Shown one piece after another: positions 11,391-32,664 of a DNA stretch of 64,000 bases. The translations under genes were made by a program, and so were the position numbers. Source of the stretch: Hyphomicrobiales bacterium (GTDB taxonomy: Bacteria > Pseudomonadota > Alphaproteobacteria > Rhizobiales > Xanthobacteraceae); contig JAFKKN010000010.1 in assembly GCA_017305535.1 (NCBI GenBank), positions 124,001 to 188,000 on the forward strand, read 5' to 3'. Each line of letters begins with the position of its first letter. Position 1 is the first letter of the stretch. Under the pieces are notes generated by a model. The model was not told the DNA's origin. It saw only the letters and a list, made by a program, of their open reading frames with translations, and did no database searches.

Positions 11391-11487
11391 CGTCATGGCC
11401 GGGCTTGTCCCGGCCATCCACGCCTTTCGTGCAAATTGTAGAGCGAAAGAGAAGACGTGGATGCCCGGGACAAGCCCGGGCATGACG
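11391..11487. repeat. Interspersed palindromic element (CGTCATGGCCGGG family)
   Basis: The outer arms are CGTCATGGCCGGGCTTGTCC and the near-complement GGACAAGCCCGGGCATGACG; an inner pair CATCCACG/CGTGGATG surrounds a variable centre. It is closely matched by 20271-20360 and 32534-32623. It lies between two convergent genes, M20 and udgX. Confidence 0.9.
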
Positions 11488-12347: not shown

Positions 12348-12362
12348 GAACATAACGTGAAC
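12348..12362 (+). promoter_or_regulatory. SOS (LexA) box of the imuA-imuB-dnaE2 operon
   Basis: GAACATAACGTGAAC is a perfect GAAC-N7-GAAC, the complement of the direct-repeat GTTC-N7-GTTC box recognised by alphaproteobacterial LexA. It lies 78 bases before the first imuA start codon, where a LexA operator would block the promoter. Confidence 0.9.
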
Positions 12363-12439: not shown

Positions 12440-13357
12440 ATGGAGAGCGCGCGCAGCGTATTTTCGCGCGACGAGGAGGCCGGTCGTCGCCGGGTCATGG
12501 CCGGCTTCGGCCCGGCGACGGTCGGGTCGCATAACGACCATGCATCTCAGCACGGTTCCACCCTCGCGCGTCTGCGCAGGGACATCGGGCGCCTGGAAGG
12601 CGATGGTCTCTCCTTCGGCGGCGAGGGACCGCCGCGCGTAGCGCTCGGCCATGATGAAGCCGATGCGACGCTGCAAGGCGGCCTGCTGCGCGGCGCGTTG
12701 CACGAAGTGTTCGCGAGCGGCGCGCAGGCGGCGAACGCCACCGGTTTTATCGCCGGGCTGGCGTCGCGCGTCGCGGCGCGGCGGCCGCTGATATGGGTCC
12801 GGCAGGATTTTTCCGAGCGCGAGAACGGTCAGCTCGCGATGAGCGGCTGGTGTGAACTCGGCCTCGATCCGCGCGCGGTGGTGACGGTGCGCGCGCCCGA
12901 TATCGAAGCTGCGTTGCAGATCACGGCGGATGCTTTGGCCTGCGATGCGCTTGGCGCCGTCGTCACCGAGATCTGGGGCGAGACCCGCTATGTCGATCTG
13001 GTCGCCAGCCGCAAGCTGACATTGGCGGCGCGTGGTTCCGGCGTCGCCAGCCTGATGTTGCGGATCGCGGCGTCGCCGTCGCCGAGCACGGCGGAGACGC
13101 GATGGGTGGTGCGCGCGGCACGCTCGCCGCCGCGTTCGTCGTGGCAGGGGTGGGGCGCACCCGTGTTCGACGCTCAACTGGTTCGCAATCGTCATGGCCA
13201 GACCGGCCAGTGGATCATGGAATGGAATTGTGATGAGTGCCTTTTCCGTGACGCCCTCTTCGGAGGTCCGGCGACGCATCCTCAGCCTGTGGCTGCCGCG
13301 CCTGCCGACCGATCGCATCAAGCGGCAAATGTCATGTACCAGCGGCGCGCAGGTTGA
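12440..13357 (+). CDS. imuA: ImuA, RecA-like component of the SOS mutasome
   Basis: 305 residues if started at 12440; an in-frame ATG at 12497 gives a shorter form. ImuA is a RecA-fold protein that, with ImuB and DnaE2, performs mutagenic translesion synthesis after DNA damage. The conserved body begins at STLARLRRDIGRLEG and runs through RPLIWVRQDF, DALGAVVTEIWG and LRIAASPSPS to the C-terminal HGQTGQWIMEWNCDECLF. The segment before it overlaps a perfect inverted repeat (12485-12519), so the N-terminus is probably repeat-derived. Its last 125 bases overlap imuB in another frame, an unusually long overlap. SOS-controlled by the box at 12348. Confidence 0.92.
   Translation: MESARSVFSRDEEAGRRRVMAGFGPATVGSHNDHASQHGSTLARLRRDIGRLEGDGLSFGGEGPPRVALGHDEADATLQGGLLRGALHEVFASGAQAANATGFIAGLASRVAARRPLIWVRQDFSERENGQLAMSGWCELGLDPRAVVTVRAPDIEAALQITADALACDALGAVVTEIWGETRYVDLVASRKLTLAARGSGVASLMLRIAASPSPSTAETRWVVRAARSPPRSSWQGWGAPVFDAQLVRNRHGQTGQWIMEWNCDECLFRDALFGGPATHPQPVAAAPADRSHQAANVMYQRRAG
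12485..12519. repeat. Inverted repeat at the start of imuA, probable palindromic-element remnant
   Basis: CGTCGCCGGG and CCCGGCGACG form perfect 10-bp arms around a centre containing TCATGGCCGG, which echoes the CGTCATGGCCGGG repeat family. The in-frame ATG at 12497 is inside it. Confidence 0.6.
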
Positions 13358-14822
13358 TGAGACGCCTTGCATCGTCGTCGCCAAGGATCACAACGCGCTG
13401 GTGATCTCGGCGCTCAACGATGCTGCAACGCGGCTAGGGTTCGAACCCGGACTGCCGCTGGCCAACGCGCGCGCGATCTGCCCGGACATCGCGGTGTTCG
13501 ATGCCGACGACGTGGCCGATGCACAGACGTTGAACGCTATCGCCGACTGGTGCGACCGCTTCACGCCGCTGGTGGCGCTCGATCCACCGCATGGCCTGCT
13601 GCTCGACATCAGCGGTTGCGCGCACCTGTTCGGCGGCGAAGCAGCGATGTTGAAGACCATCTGCGACGCCTTGCGCCGGCAAGGCTTTGTCGTTAGCGCC
13701 GCCATCGCCGGCACCGCCATCTGCGCGCGGACGCTGACGCGCGGGCGTTCCGGTTGCGTCGTTGCCGAGGGGCAGGAGGCGGCGGCGGTCACGGCGCTGC
13801 CGGTGTTCACGCTGGGGGCCGACGATGCGATCACGCGCGGCTTGCGTCGTGCCGGATTGAAGACCATCGGCGACGTCGCCGCGCGCGGCCGTCACGAGAT
13901 CGCCGCGCGGTTCGGCGCCGAGTTCGTCGCGTTGCTGGAGCAGGCGCTGGGCGCGCGCGATGCGCCAATCTCGCCGCGCAAGCCGTTGCCGGACTATATC
14001 GCGGAGCGGCGGTTCGCCGATCCGGTCGCGACCGACACGGTGATCGTCGCGACGCTATCCCGTCTGGCACAAACACTGATCGCCAGCATGAACCGCGACG
14101 GCAAGGGCGCGCGGCGGCTGGAGGCGAGTTTCTTCCGCACCGACGGCGCGGTGCGCACGATCGGCGTCGAAACCGGATTGCCGGTGACGCGTGGCGACAT
14201 CATCGATCGTCTGTTCCGCGAGCGGCTCGACGCGCTGGCCGATCCGCTCGATCCAGGTTTCGGCTTCGACCTGATCCGGCTTGCCGCAAGCCGCACCGAC
14301 GACGTGGTCGCGGCGCAACGCGATCTCGACGCGCATGTCCATGATAGCGACGAGGTGGCGGCGCTGATCGACCGCATCGCGGCGCGGATCGGCGGCAGCC
14401 GCATCGTCGTGCACCTGCCGCAGGACACGCACATCCCCGAGCGCGCCATGCTCGCGGTGCCGGCGCAGCATCATGTCGCGGCGGCGACGGTGGCCGCATG
14501 GCCCGCGCGCACTGAGGCCGAACCGCCGCTGCGTCCGCTGCGGCTGTTCGCGCAGCCGGAGCCGGTGGAGGTGTTGGCGGATTTTCCGCACGGCCCACCG
14601 GCGGCGTTCCGCTGGCGCCGCGCGTTCCATCGCCTCGCGCTGATCGAGGGCCCGGAGCGCATCGCCATGGAATGGTGGCGGCTCGGCGACCGCGACGATC
14701 TCACGCGCGATTATTTTCGCGCTGAGGATTCCGACGGCGCGCGATTCTGGCTCTATCGCGAAGGCATTCATCGTCGCGAGGTCGTCAGCTTTCGCTGGTT
14801 TCTGCATGGACTGTTCGCATGA
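13233..14822 (+). CDS. imuB: ImuB, catalytically inactive Y-family polymerase-like hub of the mutasome
   Basis: 529 residues from the ATG at 13233; the upstream extension to 13194 is only the imuA overlap. It opens with the family's RRRILSLWLPRLPTDR. The Y-family palm is recognisable (ALVISALNDAATRLGFEPGLPLANARAICP, then HGLLLDISGCAHLFGGE), but the paired acidic residues of active polymerases (the DE of SxDEAYxD) are absent, as is usual for ImuB. It acts as a scaffold linking ImuA, DnaE2 and the sliding clamp. The C-terminal REVVSFRWFLHGLFA block is also typical. Its stop overlaps the dnaE2 start (ATGA). Confidence 0.93.
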   Translation: MSAFSVTPSSEVRRRILSLWLPRLPTDRIKRQMSCTSGAQVDETPCIVVAKDHNALVISALNDAATRLGFEPGLPLANARAICPDIAVFDADDVADAQTLNAIADWCDRFTPLVALDPPHGLLLDISGCAHLFGGEAAMLKTICDALRRQGFVVSAAIAGTAICARTLTRGRSGCVVAEGQEAAAVTALPVFTLGADDAITRGLRRAGLKTIGDVAARGRHEIAARFGAEFVALLEQALGARDAPISPRKPLPDYIAERRFADPVATDTVIVATLSRLAQTLIASMNRDGKGARRLEASFFRTDGAVRTIGVETGLPVTRGDIIDRLFRERLDALADPLDPGFGFDLIRLAASRTDDVVAAQRDLDAHVHDSDEVAALIDRIAARIGGSRIVVHLPQDTHIPERAMLAVPAQHHVAAATVAAWPARTEAEPPLRPLRLFAQPEPVEVLADFPHGPPAAFRWRRAFHRLALIEGPERIAMEWWRLGDRDDLTRDYFRAEDSDGARFWLYREGIHRREVVSFRWFLHGLFA

Positions 14823-17800
14823 CCGCCTATGCTGAAATCGGCGTCACCAGCAATTTCTCGTTCCTGCGCGGCGCGTCGCATCCGCAGGAATATGTGCGGC
14901 GCGCCAGCAAATACGGCCTCTATGCCATCGGCATCGCCGATCACAACACGCTGGCGGGGGTGGTGCGTGCTTACAGCGAATACGGCAACCGGAAGCGCGT
15001 GCGTTACAAGCCGAAGCTGTTGGTCGGCACGCGGCTGGTATTCACCGACGGTACGCCGGATATCCTGGCCTATCCGCGCGACCGCGCCGCCTATGGGCGG
15101 CTCTGCCAATTGCTCAGCAAAGGCAAGCTCGCGGCGGAGAAGGGCGAGTGTCATCTGCGCTTCGCCGATCTGGCGGAGTTCAGCGATGGTCTGCTGCTGG
15201 TGGTAATGCCGGAGTATCGCATCCGCATCAAGATCACGCTGACGACACTCGATGCGCTTTCGCGTCTTCCCGCCGAGGGCGTGTGGCTCGCGGCATCGTT
15301 GCATCATCACGGCGACGATGAGCGGCGCATGGCGCGGCTCGAACGGATCGCGACGACGGCACGCGTGCCGCTGATCGCCACCAACGACGTGCTCTATCAT
15401 GTGCATCAGCGCCGACCGTTGCAGGACGTCTTGTGCTGCATTCGTGAGAAAGTGGCGATCACGGCTGCGGGTCGCAAGCTGCAAGCCCACGTCGAACGCC
15501 ATCTGCGTTCGGCGAACGATATGGCGCGGCTGTTCCGGCCATGGCCGGATGCGCTGGCTGAAACGGTGCGTTTCGCCGACCGCATCACCTTCACGCTCGA
15601 TCAACTGCAATATCAGTATCCCGATGAGCCGGTGCCGCCGGGCAAGACCGCGCAACAGCATCTCGAAGACCTGACATCGGCGGGCGTCAAAAAATATTTC
15701 CCGGAAGGTATCGACGACAAATTGCGCGCGACGCTGGACAAGGAACTCGCGCTGATCGCGGAGCTGAAATACGCGCATTACTTCCTCACCGTGCACGACA
15801 TCGTGCACTGGGCGAGGGCGCAGAACATTCTCTGTCAAGGGCGTGGCTCGGCGGCCAATTCCGCGGTCTGTTATGTCCTCGGCATCACGTCGGTGAATCC
15901 GGCCGAGATCGACGTGCTGTTCGAGCGTTTCATTTCCAAGGAGCGGCTGGAGCCGCCGGATATCGACGTCGACTTCGAGCACACCCGCCGCGAGGAGGTG
16001 ATGCAGTATGTCTATCGCCGCTATGGGCGCCACCGTGCGGCGATCATTGCCACCGTCATTCATTATCGGCCGCGCAGCGCCATCCGCGATGTCGGCAAGG
16101 CGCTGGGCCTGACCGAGGATGTCACCGCCGCGCTGGCCGATACGGTGTGGGGTCACCATGGCGACGACCTCGACGACAAGCAGGTGCGGCAGGCCGGACT
16201 GGAGCCAAATAATCCCACGGTGGCGCGCGCGGTGCGGCTGGCGACGCAACTGATCGGCTTTCCGCGTCATCTGTCGCAGCATGTCGGCGGCTATGTGCTG
16301 ACGCAGGACCGCCTCGACACCTATGTGCCGATCGGCAACGCCGCGATGGCGGACCGCACCTTCATCGAATGGGACAAGGACGACGTCGACGCGATGCGGA
16401 TGATGAAGGTCGACGTGCTGGCGCTCGGCATGTTGACCTGCATCCGCAAATGTTTTGACATGATCGCGCAGCATAAGGGCGAATGCTGGGAGTTGGCGAC
16501 GATCCCGCGCGAACTTCCCGAGGTCTACGACATGTTGTGCGAGGGCGAATCTCTCGGCGTGTTTCAGGTCGAAAGCCGAGCCCAGATGAACATGCTGCCG
16601 CGCCTGAGACCGCGAGAATTCTACGATCTCGTCATCGAGGTCGCCATCGTGCGGCCGGGGCCGATCCAGGGCAACATGGTGCATCCGTATCTTAAACGTC
16701 GGAACGGGATCGAAAAAATTTATTATCCGGCGCCATCACCGGAACATGGTCCACCTGACGAATTGAAGAAAGTGCTGGGCCGAACCAAAGGTGTCCCGCT
16801 GTTTCAGGAACAGGCGATGCGCATCGCCATCGAAGCCGCGAAGTTCACGTCGGAAGAAGCCAACGGCCTGCGCCGGTCGATGGCGACATTCCGCAATCTC
16901 GGCACCATCGGCACGTTCGGAACCAAGATGGTCGGCAACATGATCGCACGCGGTTACGATCCGGAGTTCGCGAAAAACTGTTTCGAGCAGATCAAGGGTT
17001 TCGGCAGCTATGGTTTCCCGGAAAGCCACGCCGCCGCCTTCGCGCAGCTTGTCTATGTTTCATCGTGGTTGAAGAAATTCCATCCCGATGCATTCTGTTG
17101 CGGGTTGTTGAATTCGCAGCCGATGGGATTTTACGCACCGGCGCAGATCGTCGGTGATGCGCGCAAGAACGGCGTTGAGGTGTGCGAGATCGATGTGTCG
17201 TTCAGCTTCAGTCAGAACACGCTGGAAGCATGCGGCGGCAAATATCACGCGGTGCGGCTCGGCTTCCGCCAGATCGACGGGTTCAAGTGGATCGATCCGG
17301 ATGAGGAACGGATCAAGCAGCAAACGGTCAATGGCGAGTCGTTCCCTCCCCCCTTGTGGGGGAGGGCTAGGGAGGGGGGTATCGCGGATGCTGAGCCTGA
17401 AATTTATCCCCCTCTCCACCTCTCCCCCACAAGGGGGGAGAGAGCAGGTCGTGGGTGGATCGAGACCTCGTCAAATTCGCTGACGTGTAAACAATCAGAA
17501 CCGTCCCCGGTCAATAAAGACGACTGGGGCGAACGCATCGTCGCCGCGCGTGAACGGCGGCCGTTCACGTCGCTGGAGGACTTCGCCCGCGATACGAAGC
17601 TGCCGAAGCGCGCGCTGATCCTCTTGGCGGATGCCGATGCATTCCGTTCGCTCGGGCTCGACCGTCGCGCCGCGCTGTGGGCAGTGCGCCGTTTGCCGGA
17701 CGACGCGCCGCTGCCGTTGTTCGAGGCGGCCATCGCGCGGGAGCAGCCGGACGAAGGCGCGCAACCGTTGCCACGGATGCCGCTGCCGGAGCAGGTGATG

Positions 17801-20253: not shown

Positions 20254-20270
20254 GGGACCGACGGATGACT

Positions 20271-20360
20271 CGTCATGGCCGGGCTTGTCCCGGCCATCCA
20301 CGTTCTTCCTGATAGCCTGCCTCAAAGACGTGGATGCCCGGGACAAGCCCGGGCATGACG
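20271..20360. repeat. Interspersed palindromic element (CGTCATGGCCGGG family)
   Basis: Outer arms CGTCATGGCCGGGCTTGTCC and GGACAAGCCCGGGCATGACG, inner arms CATCCACG/CGTGGATG. Nearly identical in its arms to 11391-11487, with a different centre. Between two convergent genes. Confidence 0.9.
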
Positions 20361-20400
20361 ACATTGAGTCTGCCTTGCGCAATGACGAAGGAGGGATCGC

Positions 20401-32502: not shown

Positions 32503-32664
32503 GTCGTCCCCGCGCAGGCGGGGACCTCCCCGTCGTCATGGCCGGATATATTTCGGCCATTCACGTCTTTGCAGAGATCCAACATGAAGAACGTGGATGG
32601 CCGGGACAAGCCCGGCCATGACGGAAACAATGGCATTCTGGGTCCCCGCCTGCGCGGGGACAAC
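32503..32664. repeat. Composite of two palindromic repeat families
   Basis: GTCCCCGC units at 32503-32525 and 32641-32664 (GGTCCCCGCCTGCGCGGGGAC) bracket a CGTCATGGCCGG...CCGGCCATGACG element at 32534-32623 with inner arms TTCACGTCTT/AACGTGGAT. One family appears nested inside a pair of the other, and the left unit supplies upstream sequence to the peptidase frame. Confidence 0.85.

Follow-up and report, generated by a model that had tools for sequence, protein, structure and literature searches.

RIME are elements of about 100 bp that carry two palindromes, occur in many copies in Rhizobiales and are described as intergenic. They are mentioned as Rhizobium-specific intergenic mosaic elements in the part of PMC2573895 consulted here. 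The Rickettsia palindromic elements (RPE, ~105-146 bp) and their Wolbachia counterparts (WPE), as presented in the consulted parts of PMC2229807 and PMC4224334, are palindromes that are translated in frame in conserved proteins and tolerated there. A third class, the GTAG and CGTC REPs, is also palindromic, often arranged as inverted dimers, and intragenic: the consulted part of Di Nocera et al. 2013 (PMC3733652) places REPs within many genes, many of them for DNA repair, and names DnaE2 and UvrA. In that same part, inserts at nearly the same site are reported for recB only, in two species, and for other genes within one functional category the REP sites differ.

Here, we describe a palindromic repeat that is translated inside dnaE2, the gene of an error-prone DNA polymerase, in a 64,000-nucleotide stretch of DNA from Hyphomicrobiales bacterium (the window). 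Likened by description and not by sequence, it resembles RIME in its size of ~100 bp, its two palindromes and its many copies, but RIME are intergenic by description, whereas the copy in dnaE2 is translated. Similar to RPE and WPE, it is palindromic and dispersed, occupies a conserved protein-coding gene without breaking the frame and is missing from some orthologues; unlike them, again comparing descriptions and not sequences, it lives in a 4.7 Mb genome and is mostly intergenic. With the GTAG/CGTC REPs it shares stem-loop units arranged as inverted dimers, but the consensus of seven copies of the window element lacks the GTAG or CGTC end tag and, unlike what is expected for GTAG REPs, no RAYT (Y1 transposase) came to light, since PF01797 gave 0 matches in the element's own genome in a search whose control matched 5/14 named genomes.

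The preliminary description of this locus held that in-frame palindromic elements are known mainly from Rickettsia. This view is outdated, given the intragenic repeats of many bacteria, DnaE2 among the hosts named, in the consulted part of PMC3733652; in fact, repeats inside DnaE2 and UvrA have been known since that 2013 paper. As far as the literature searched shows, what is added here is that unrelated repeats recur in, and replace one another within, the same loops of DnaE2, and how often they do so. Compared with the REPs of PMC3733652 as the consulted part presents them, unrelated kinds return here to the same DnaE2 loops, and same-site DnaE2 cases may be contained in the supplementary table of that paper.

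The repeat and its host gene

The host gene can be assigned to the DnaE2 class because its product scores 1541.6 bits against the family model PRK05672 (cut-off 939) and because it stands in a cassette with imuA- and imuB-like neighbours, which match their own families weakly (Table 1). DnaE2 is a dispensable polymerase. Residues D381, D383 and D532, which we take to be catalytic by comparison with E. coli DnaE, are invariant in a 63-sequence alignment. The possible SOS box upstream of the cassette was matched with a motif that we take to be the alphaproteobacterial one, and the window contains 3 sites for this motif against 2.2 expected by chance.

Table 1. Features of the dnaE2 locus (positions in the window)
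Feature	Position	Strand	Remarks
Possible SOS (LexA) box GAACATAACGTGAAC	12348..12362	.	Upstream of cassette; motif match
imuA-like gene	12440..13357	+	Weak family match, below curated cut-off
imuB-like gene, cassette partner	13194..14822	+	ORF; Y-family polymerase models, below NCBIfam cut-offs
dnaE2, error-prone DNA polymerase, 1171 aa	14819..18334	+	ORF; PRK05672
DNA of disordered loop, residues 839-896	17333..17506	+	Predicted; pLDDT under 50; between helices 827-838 and 903-913
Dispersed palindromic element	17342..17444	+	Units 17342-17380 and 17408-17444 inverted, variable spacer; DnaE2 residues ~842-875
Left 19-bp perfect arm CTCCCCCCTTGTGGGGGAG	17346..17364	+	Perfect reverse complement of right arm
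Right 19-bp perfect arm CTCCCCCACAAGGGGGGAG	17422..17440	+	57 bases between arms
HHH_6 (Pfam), second part of helix-hairpin-helix domain	17528..17671	+	Model positions 38-89, residues 904-951

The perfect 19-bp inverted repeat first noticed at 17346..17440, with its 57-base centre, is as described: the arms are exact reverse complements and the whole lies in frame inside the 1171-aa reading frame. When extended by a repeat finder, the arms reach 39 nt each (17343-17381 and 17405-17443) at 85% complementarity. The RNA fold of the repeat amounts to -84.5 kcal/mol (z -6.8), with 0/200 shuffles as stable, and a 107-bp query matched the own genome 27 times, a count that includes both orientations and half copies. 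Thus, the repeat is not a chance palindrome. Rfam matches in the region are of the miRNA type and score below the gathering thresholds; we attribute them to chance similarity with a long hairpin.

Two palindromic units of ~38 bp each, inverted relative to one another, enclose a variable spacer and make up an element of ~107 bp overall. A covariance model made from 7 copies gives 34 matches at 17 places in the own genome, and the weaker ones may belong to a related repeat instead. The preliminary description had suggested looking for the same arms inside other genes: the element does recur at these ~17 places, but at none of the 16 loci examined does a copy other than that of dnaE2 lie in the interior of a recognisable conserved gene, the others being intergenic or ahead of gene starts. 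Context was judged by eye from open frames and covers the model places, of which the seventeenth came without a locus, and not the half copies seen only with the 107-bp query. A plasmid search with the element returned one partial Deinococcus match only. Elsewhere in the window, three CGTCATGGCCGG-type inverted dimers (11391-11487, 20270-20361 and 32534-32623), apparently all intergenic, look by eye like the repeat that is translated in the DnaE2 of another genome (L023).

At the protein level, the initial estimate of about 45 added residues roughly holds if the edges of the element are included, and the whole unstructured loop is larger, spanning the residues given in Table 1. An in-frame palindromic repeat within this SOS polymerase is thus supported, and the insert maps to the helix-hairpin-helix (HhH) region, where the HHH_6 match is confined to the part after the insert.

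Descent and conservation of the insert

Among congeners, three further genomes (G003, G005 and G006) carry the insert at the identical site and in the identical frame. In each of them the window copy is matched best by the genome's own dnaE2 copy, which argues for common descent. An assembly or sequencing artefact, named at the outset as one way in which the observation could fail, has next to no credibility when four separate congener assemblies carry the same insert, each in frame. The other such case, orthologues with conserved but unrelated sequence of equal length, did not occur either: what they have at this point is a shorter native loop or another repeat. In the alignment of DnaE2 from relatives, one congener (G002) shows a short native loop without the insert, another (G001) has a different repeat at the same place, and a search at E<=1e-10 found the element in neither of these two genomes. 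A clean empty site did not turn up: the loop of the congener without insert measures 11 residues against 77, a gap larger than the element, and a target-site duplication is therefore not readable.

The neighbouring genus g20 has the same repeat kind at the same DnaE2 loop in L289, L290 and L293, two of which share the exact 23-base unit. The insertion may thus be older than the genus, and it possibly predates the split from g20. Two side observations belong to this group of genomes. In the congener G004 (L018 / L048) dnaE2 is broken: the frame stops soon after NSQPMGFYAP, and a different frame encodes the C-terminal part. Moreover, an intergenic copy shared by L395, L164, L394 and L396 has its unit types swapped in L395 (G005), as if inverted in place.

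How is the insert evolving? dN/dS is 0.10-0.18 outside the element and 0.35-1.77 inside it, where sites are few, and synonymous divergence in the flanks is 0.4-0.8. Across the four species, variable columns number 4/76 in the arms and 15/27 in the spacer (p 9e-8). The arms are thus near-invariant while the flanks have diverged, which plain neutral decay does not fit. This pattern might suggest that the hairpin acts as nucleic acid, slowing translation of the dnaE2 mRNA or altering its stability and thereby keeping the mutagenic polymerase low. The very stable fold and the conservation of arm nucleotides between diverged flanks would suit such a role, but an intergenic copy of the element common to the same four genomes keeps its unit cores too, and a congener as well as 95/132 sequences of the family show no such insert in dnaE2; we regard this regulatory reading as improbable. 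In fact, because the intergenic copy keeps its unit cores, arm conservation points to the element and not to the protein. It is probably a property of the element, arising through recent homogenisation, arm-to-arm correction or a function at the DNA/RNA level, and probably does not constitute evidence for a role in DnaE2.

Recurrent inserts in DnaE2 loops

We followed inserts through 107 aligned DnaE2, mostly alphaproteobacterial as judged by title or kinship, with one Pirellulales record, leaving out L018 and L048 (one genome, broken gene) and L044 (same genome as L019). In this set, 34 inserts that are 25 aa or longer and fold at z <= -3 are spread over 31 sequences, the fold cut-offs having been set after the data were seen. 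These sit at residues ~123, 138, 553, 803-807, 823, 913, 960 and 976; another 17 inserts of at least 25 aa outside residue 63 miss the cut-off. Inserts at residue 63 are common to relatives and provide an internal control: 0/9 have z <= -3 in the 107-sequence set, and in the family set one of 18 gets to z -2.8. On a predicted model, by our own reading, the insert sites map to loops that connect secondary-structure elements, with 553 at a helix end.

A survey of the own family, comprising 132 aligned sequences (two copies from some genomes) fetched from part of the 172 matching genomes among 198 searched, finds translated palindromic inserts in 37/132 DnaE2, again in a few loops; this count includes inserts below the cut-off that bear the motif of a kind, kinds being assigned by peptide motif. 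On a family tree built from alignment columns with at least 60% of rows occupied, inserts changed at least 13 times. The loop at residue 822 alone went through at least 9 changes between no insert and four assigned kinds, and L295 has a fifth kind nested within one of the four. By peptide motif, a repeat nested in another kind is apparent at 822 both in L295 and in L070. At the same position, the short loop of L016 contains CCCGGAATAACGA, which looks like a remnant of a CGTC-type repeat. In genus g29, nine DnaE2 (L023, L332 and L335-L341) share a repeat at residue 124 and differ by in-frame length changes, forming a natural decay series.

Are these inserts dispersed repeats in their own genomes as well? 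For 25 inserts from other genomes, searched by scoring the best candidates per genome, further copies were found directly in 16/25. In three more (L014, L055 and L067), they appeared only by way of a same-kind sibling insert that was part of a joined query, and the remaining six (L013, L033, L057, L066, L088 and L103) have no further own-genome copy among the matches listed.

The extra loop could instead be an adaptive feature of the protein, altering for example the contact with DNA or the way in which the HhH region touches ImuB. It does lie within the HhH region, the same loop has received inserts repeatedly, and an interface between the DnaE2 HhH region and ImuB has been modelled (PMC12926913, part consulted). 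Against this stand the raised dN/dS within the element, the predicted disorder, and the fact that differing repeats and two frames yield unrelated peptides: the own genus, g20 and L064 all read an exact 23-mer in one frame and L041 reads it in another, which makes it unlikely that the peptide itself is being preserved. We thus find an adaptive loop very hard to credit.

To explain these results we propose, at a probability of about 0.8, that a dispersed repeat inserted in a variable loop of DnaE2, where it has been tolerated and is probably near-neutral, and that such loops are hit recurrently. A ~107-bp palindromic repeat, mobile or once mobile, would have entered an already variable loop of the HhH region in the ancestor of the genus. 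The copy in dnaE2 has no stop codon in 3/6 frames, which is why the frame stayed open; with three of six frames stop-free, reading would have survived the insertion, and the open frame may be what keeps the repeat in a dispensable polymerase. The enzyme, which we infer to be made and to work with its insert, would have tolerated the insertion, as the residues gained make up a flexible loop. A few loops of DnaE2 would then serve as repeated landing places, at which unrelated repeat families are gained, lost, replaced and nested. Of this account, the data themselves show that the insert is a repeat, that its frame is open, that it descends at one site, that kinds turn over and that the sites are in loops, with disorder predicted. 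Judging from the alignments, dnaE2 looks like a hotspot, with few loops that repeatedly receive unrelated repeats.

Inserts in other genes and their meaning

Relatives carry such inserts in DnaE2 (10/36), UvrA (5/39) and DnaE1 (1/40), and none was found in MutS (0/42), PolA (0/38) or AddA (0/40). The matched DnaE2 set of 36 leaves out the partial genes of G007, G011 and G014, plus G016. The control sets come from overlapping, not identical, genomes and comprise the best 30 loci by score with some added, so that strongly interrupted copies may be under-sampled among them. After the four congeners L009-L012 are collapsed as one descent, the only shared descent so treated, DnaE2 stands at 7/33 (p 0.002-0.02 against each of DnaE1, MutS, PolA and AddA; p 0.36, not significant, against UvrA). 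DnaE2 thus exceeds four of the five comparators. The single DnaE1 case lies ahead of the HhH region, seemingly at the 803-807 site of DnaE2. Three PolA inserts ahead of the matched part of the gene (z -2.9 to -3.6, two being long upstream frames) and a palindromic-repeat-like MutS insert ahead of the gene (L240, z -5.3) were left uncounted. In a different set, ImuB has 5/89 sequences (6 inserts) at z <= -3 with mononucleotide shuffles, two of the five positives being close to the N-terminal end, whose start position is uncertain. All UvrA cases are in one loop, at residue 239, which holds two more inserts below the cut-off. Around this position, L453, L460, L470, L471 and L474 carry different translated palindromic repeats.

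The genes with most inserts raise the possibility that SOS-regulated genes are preferred places for repeats to enter or to persist, DnaE2 being hit through its mode or timing of expression. In favour of such a preference, DnaE2 and UvrA contrast with 1/160 for DnaE1, MutS, PolA and AddA pooled, and among 30 loci each the SOS-box motif occurs near uvrA in 22/30, addA in 1/30, mutS in 0/30 and polA in 1/30. Damage-induced genes would then be the preferred targets of palindromic repeats in Alphaproteobacteria, and repeats would move or be retained under active SOS, so that genes for the mutagenic polymerase and for excision repair keep gaining and swapping them in the same loops. But the comparison spans seven gene families only, ImuB inserts are few, and all UvrA cases share one tolerant loop. 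To our knowledge, polA, ligase, recBCD, addA, addB and priA are not SOS genes. Published cases include polA, ligase and recBCD (PMC3733652, part consulted) and, in Wolbachia, addA, addB and priA (PMC4224334, part consulted). Because the published cases include such genes, we treat SOS control as a lead only: a preference for SOS genes is an unlikely explanation, and its wider form, with damage-induced genes as the preferred targets, is equally doubtful. Insertion of a dispersed repeat into a tolerant, variable loop remains the reading that we favour.

What could these inserts mean for the enzyme family? The consulted part of PMC3919608 describes DnaE2 core lengths as heterogeneous and leaves repeats unmentioned. 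Translated repeats may explain part of this length variation, though the reduced cores are, in that part, mainly in Bacteroidetes. Scattered repeat DNA has repeatedly been turned into protein here, each time within a small set of loops in a single DNA repair enzyme, and natural pairs of enzymes with and without these loops provide a means to ask whether repeat-derived loops alter mutagenesis.
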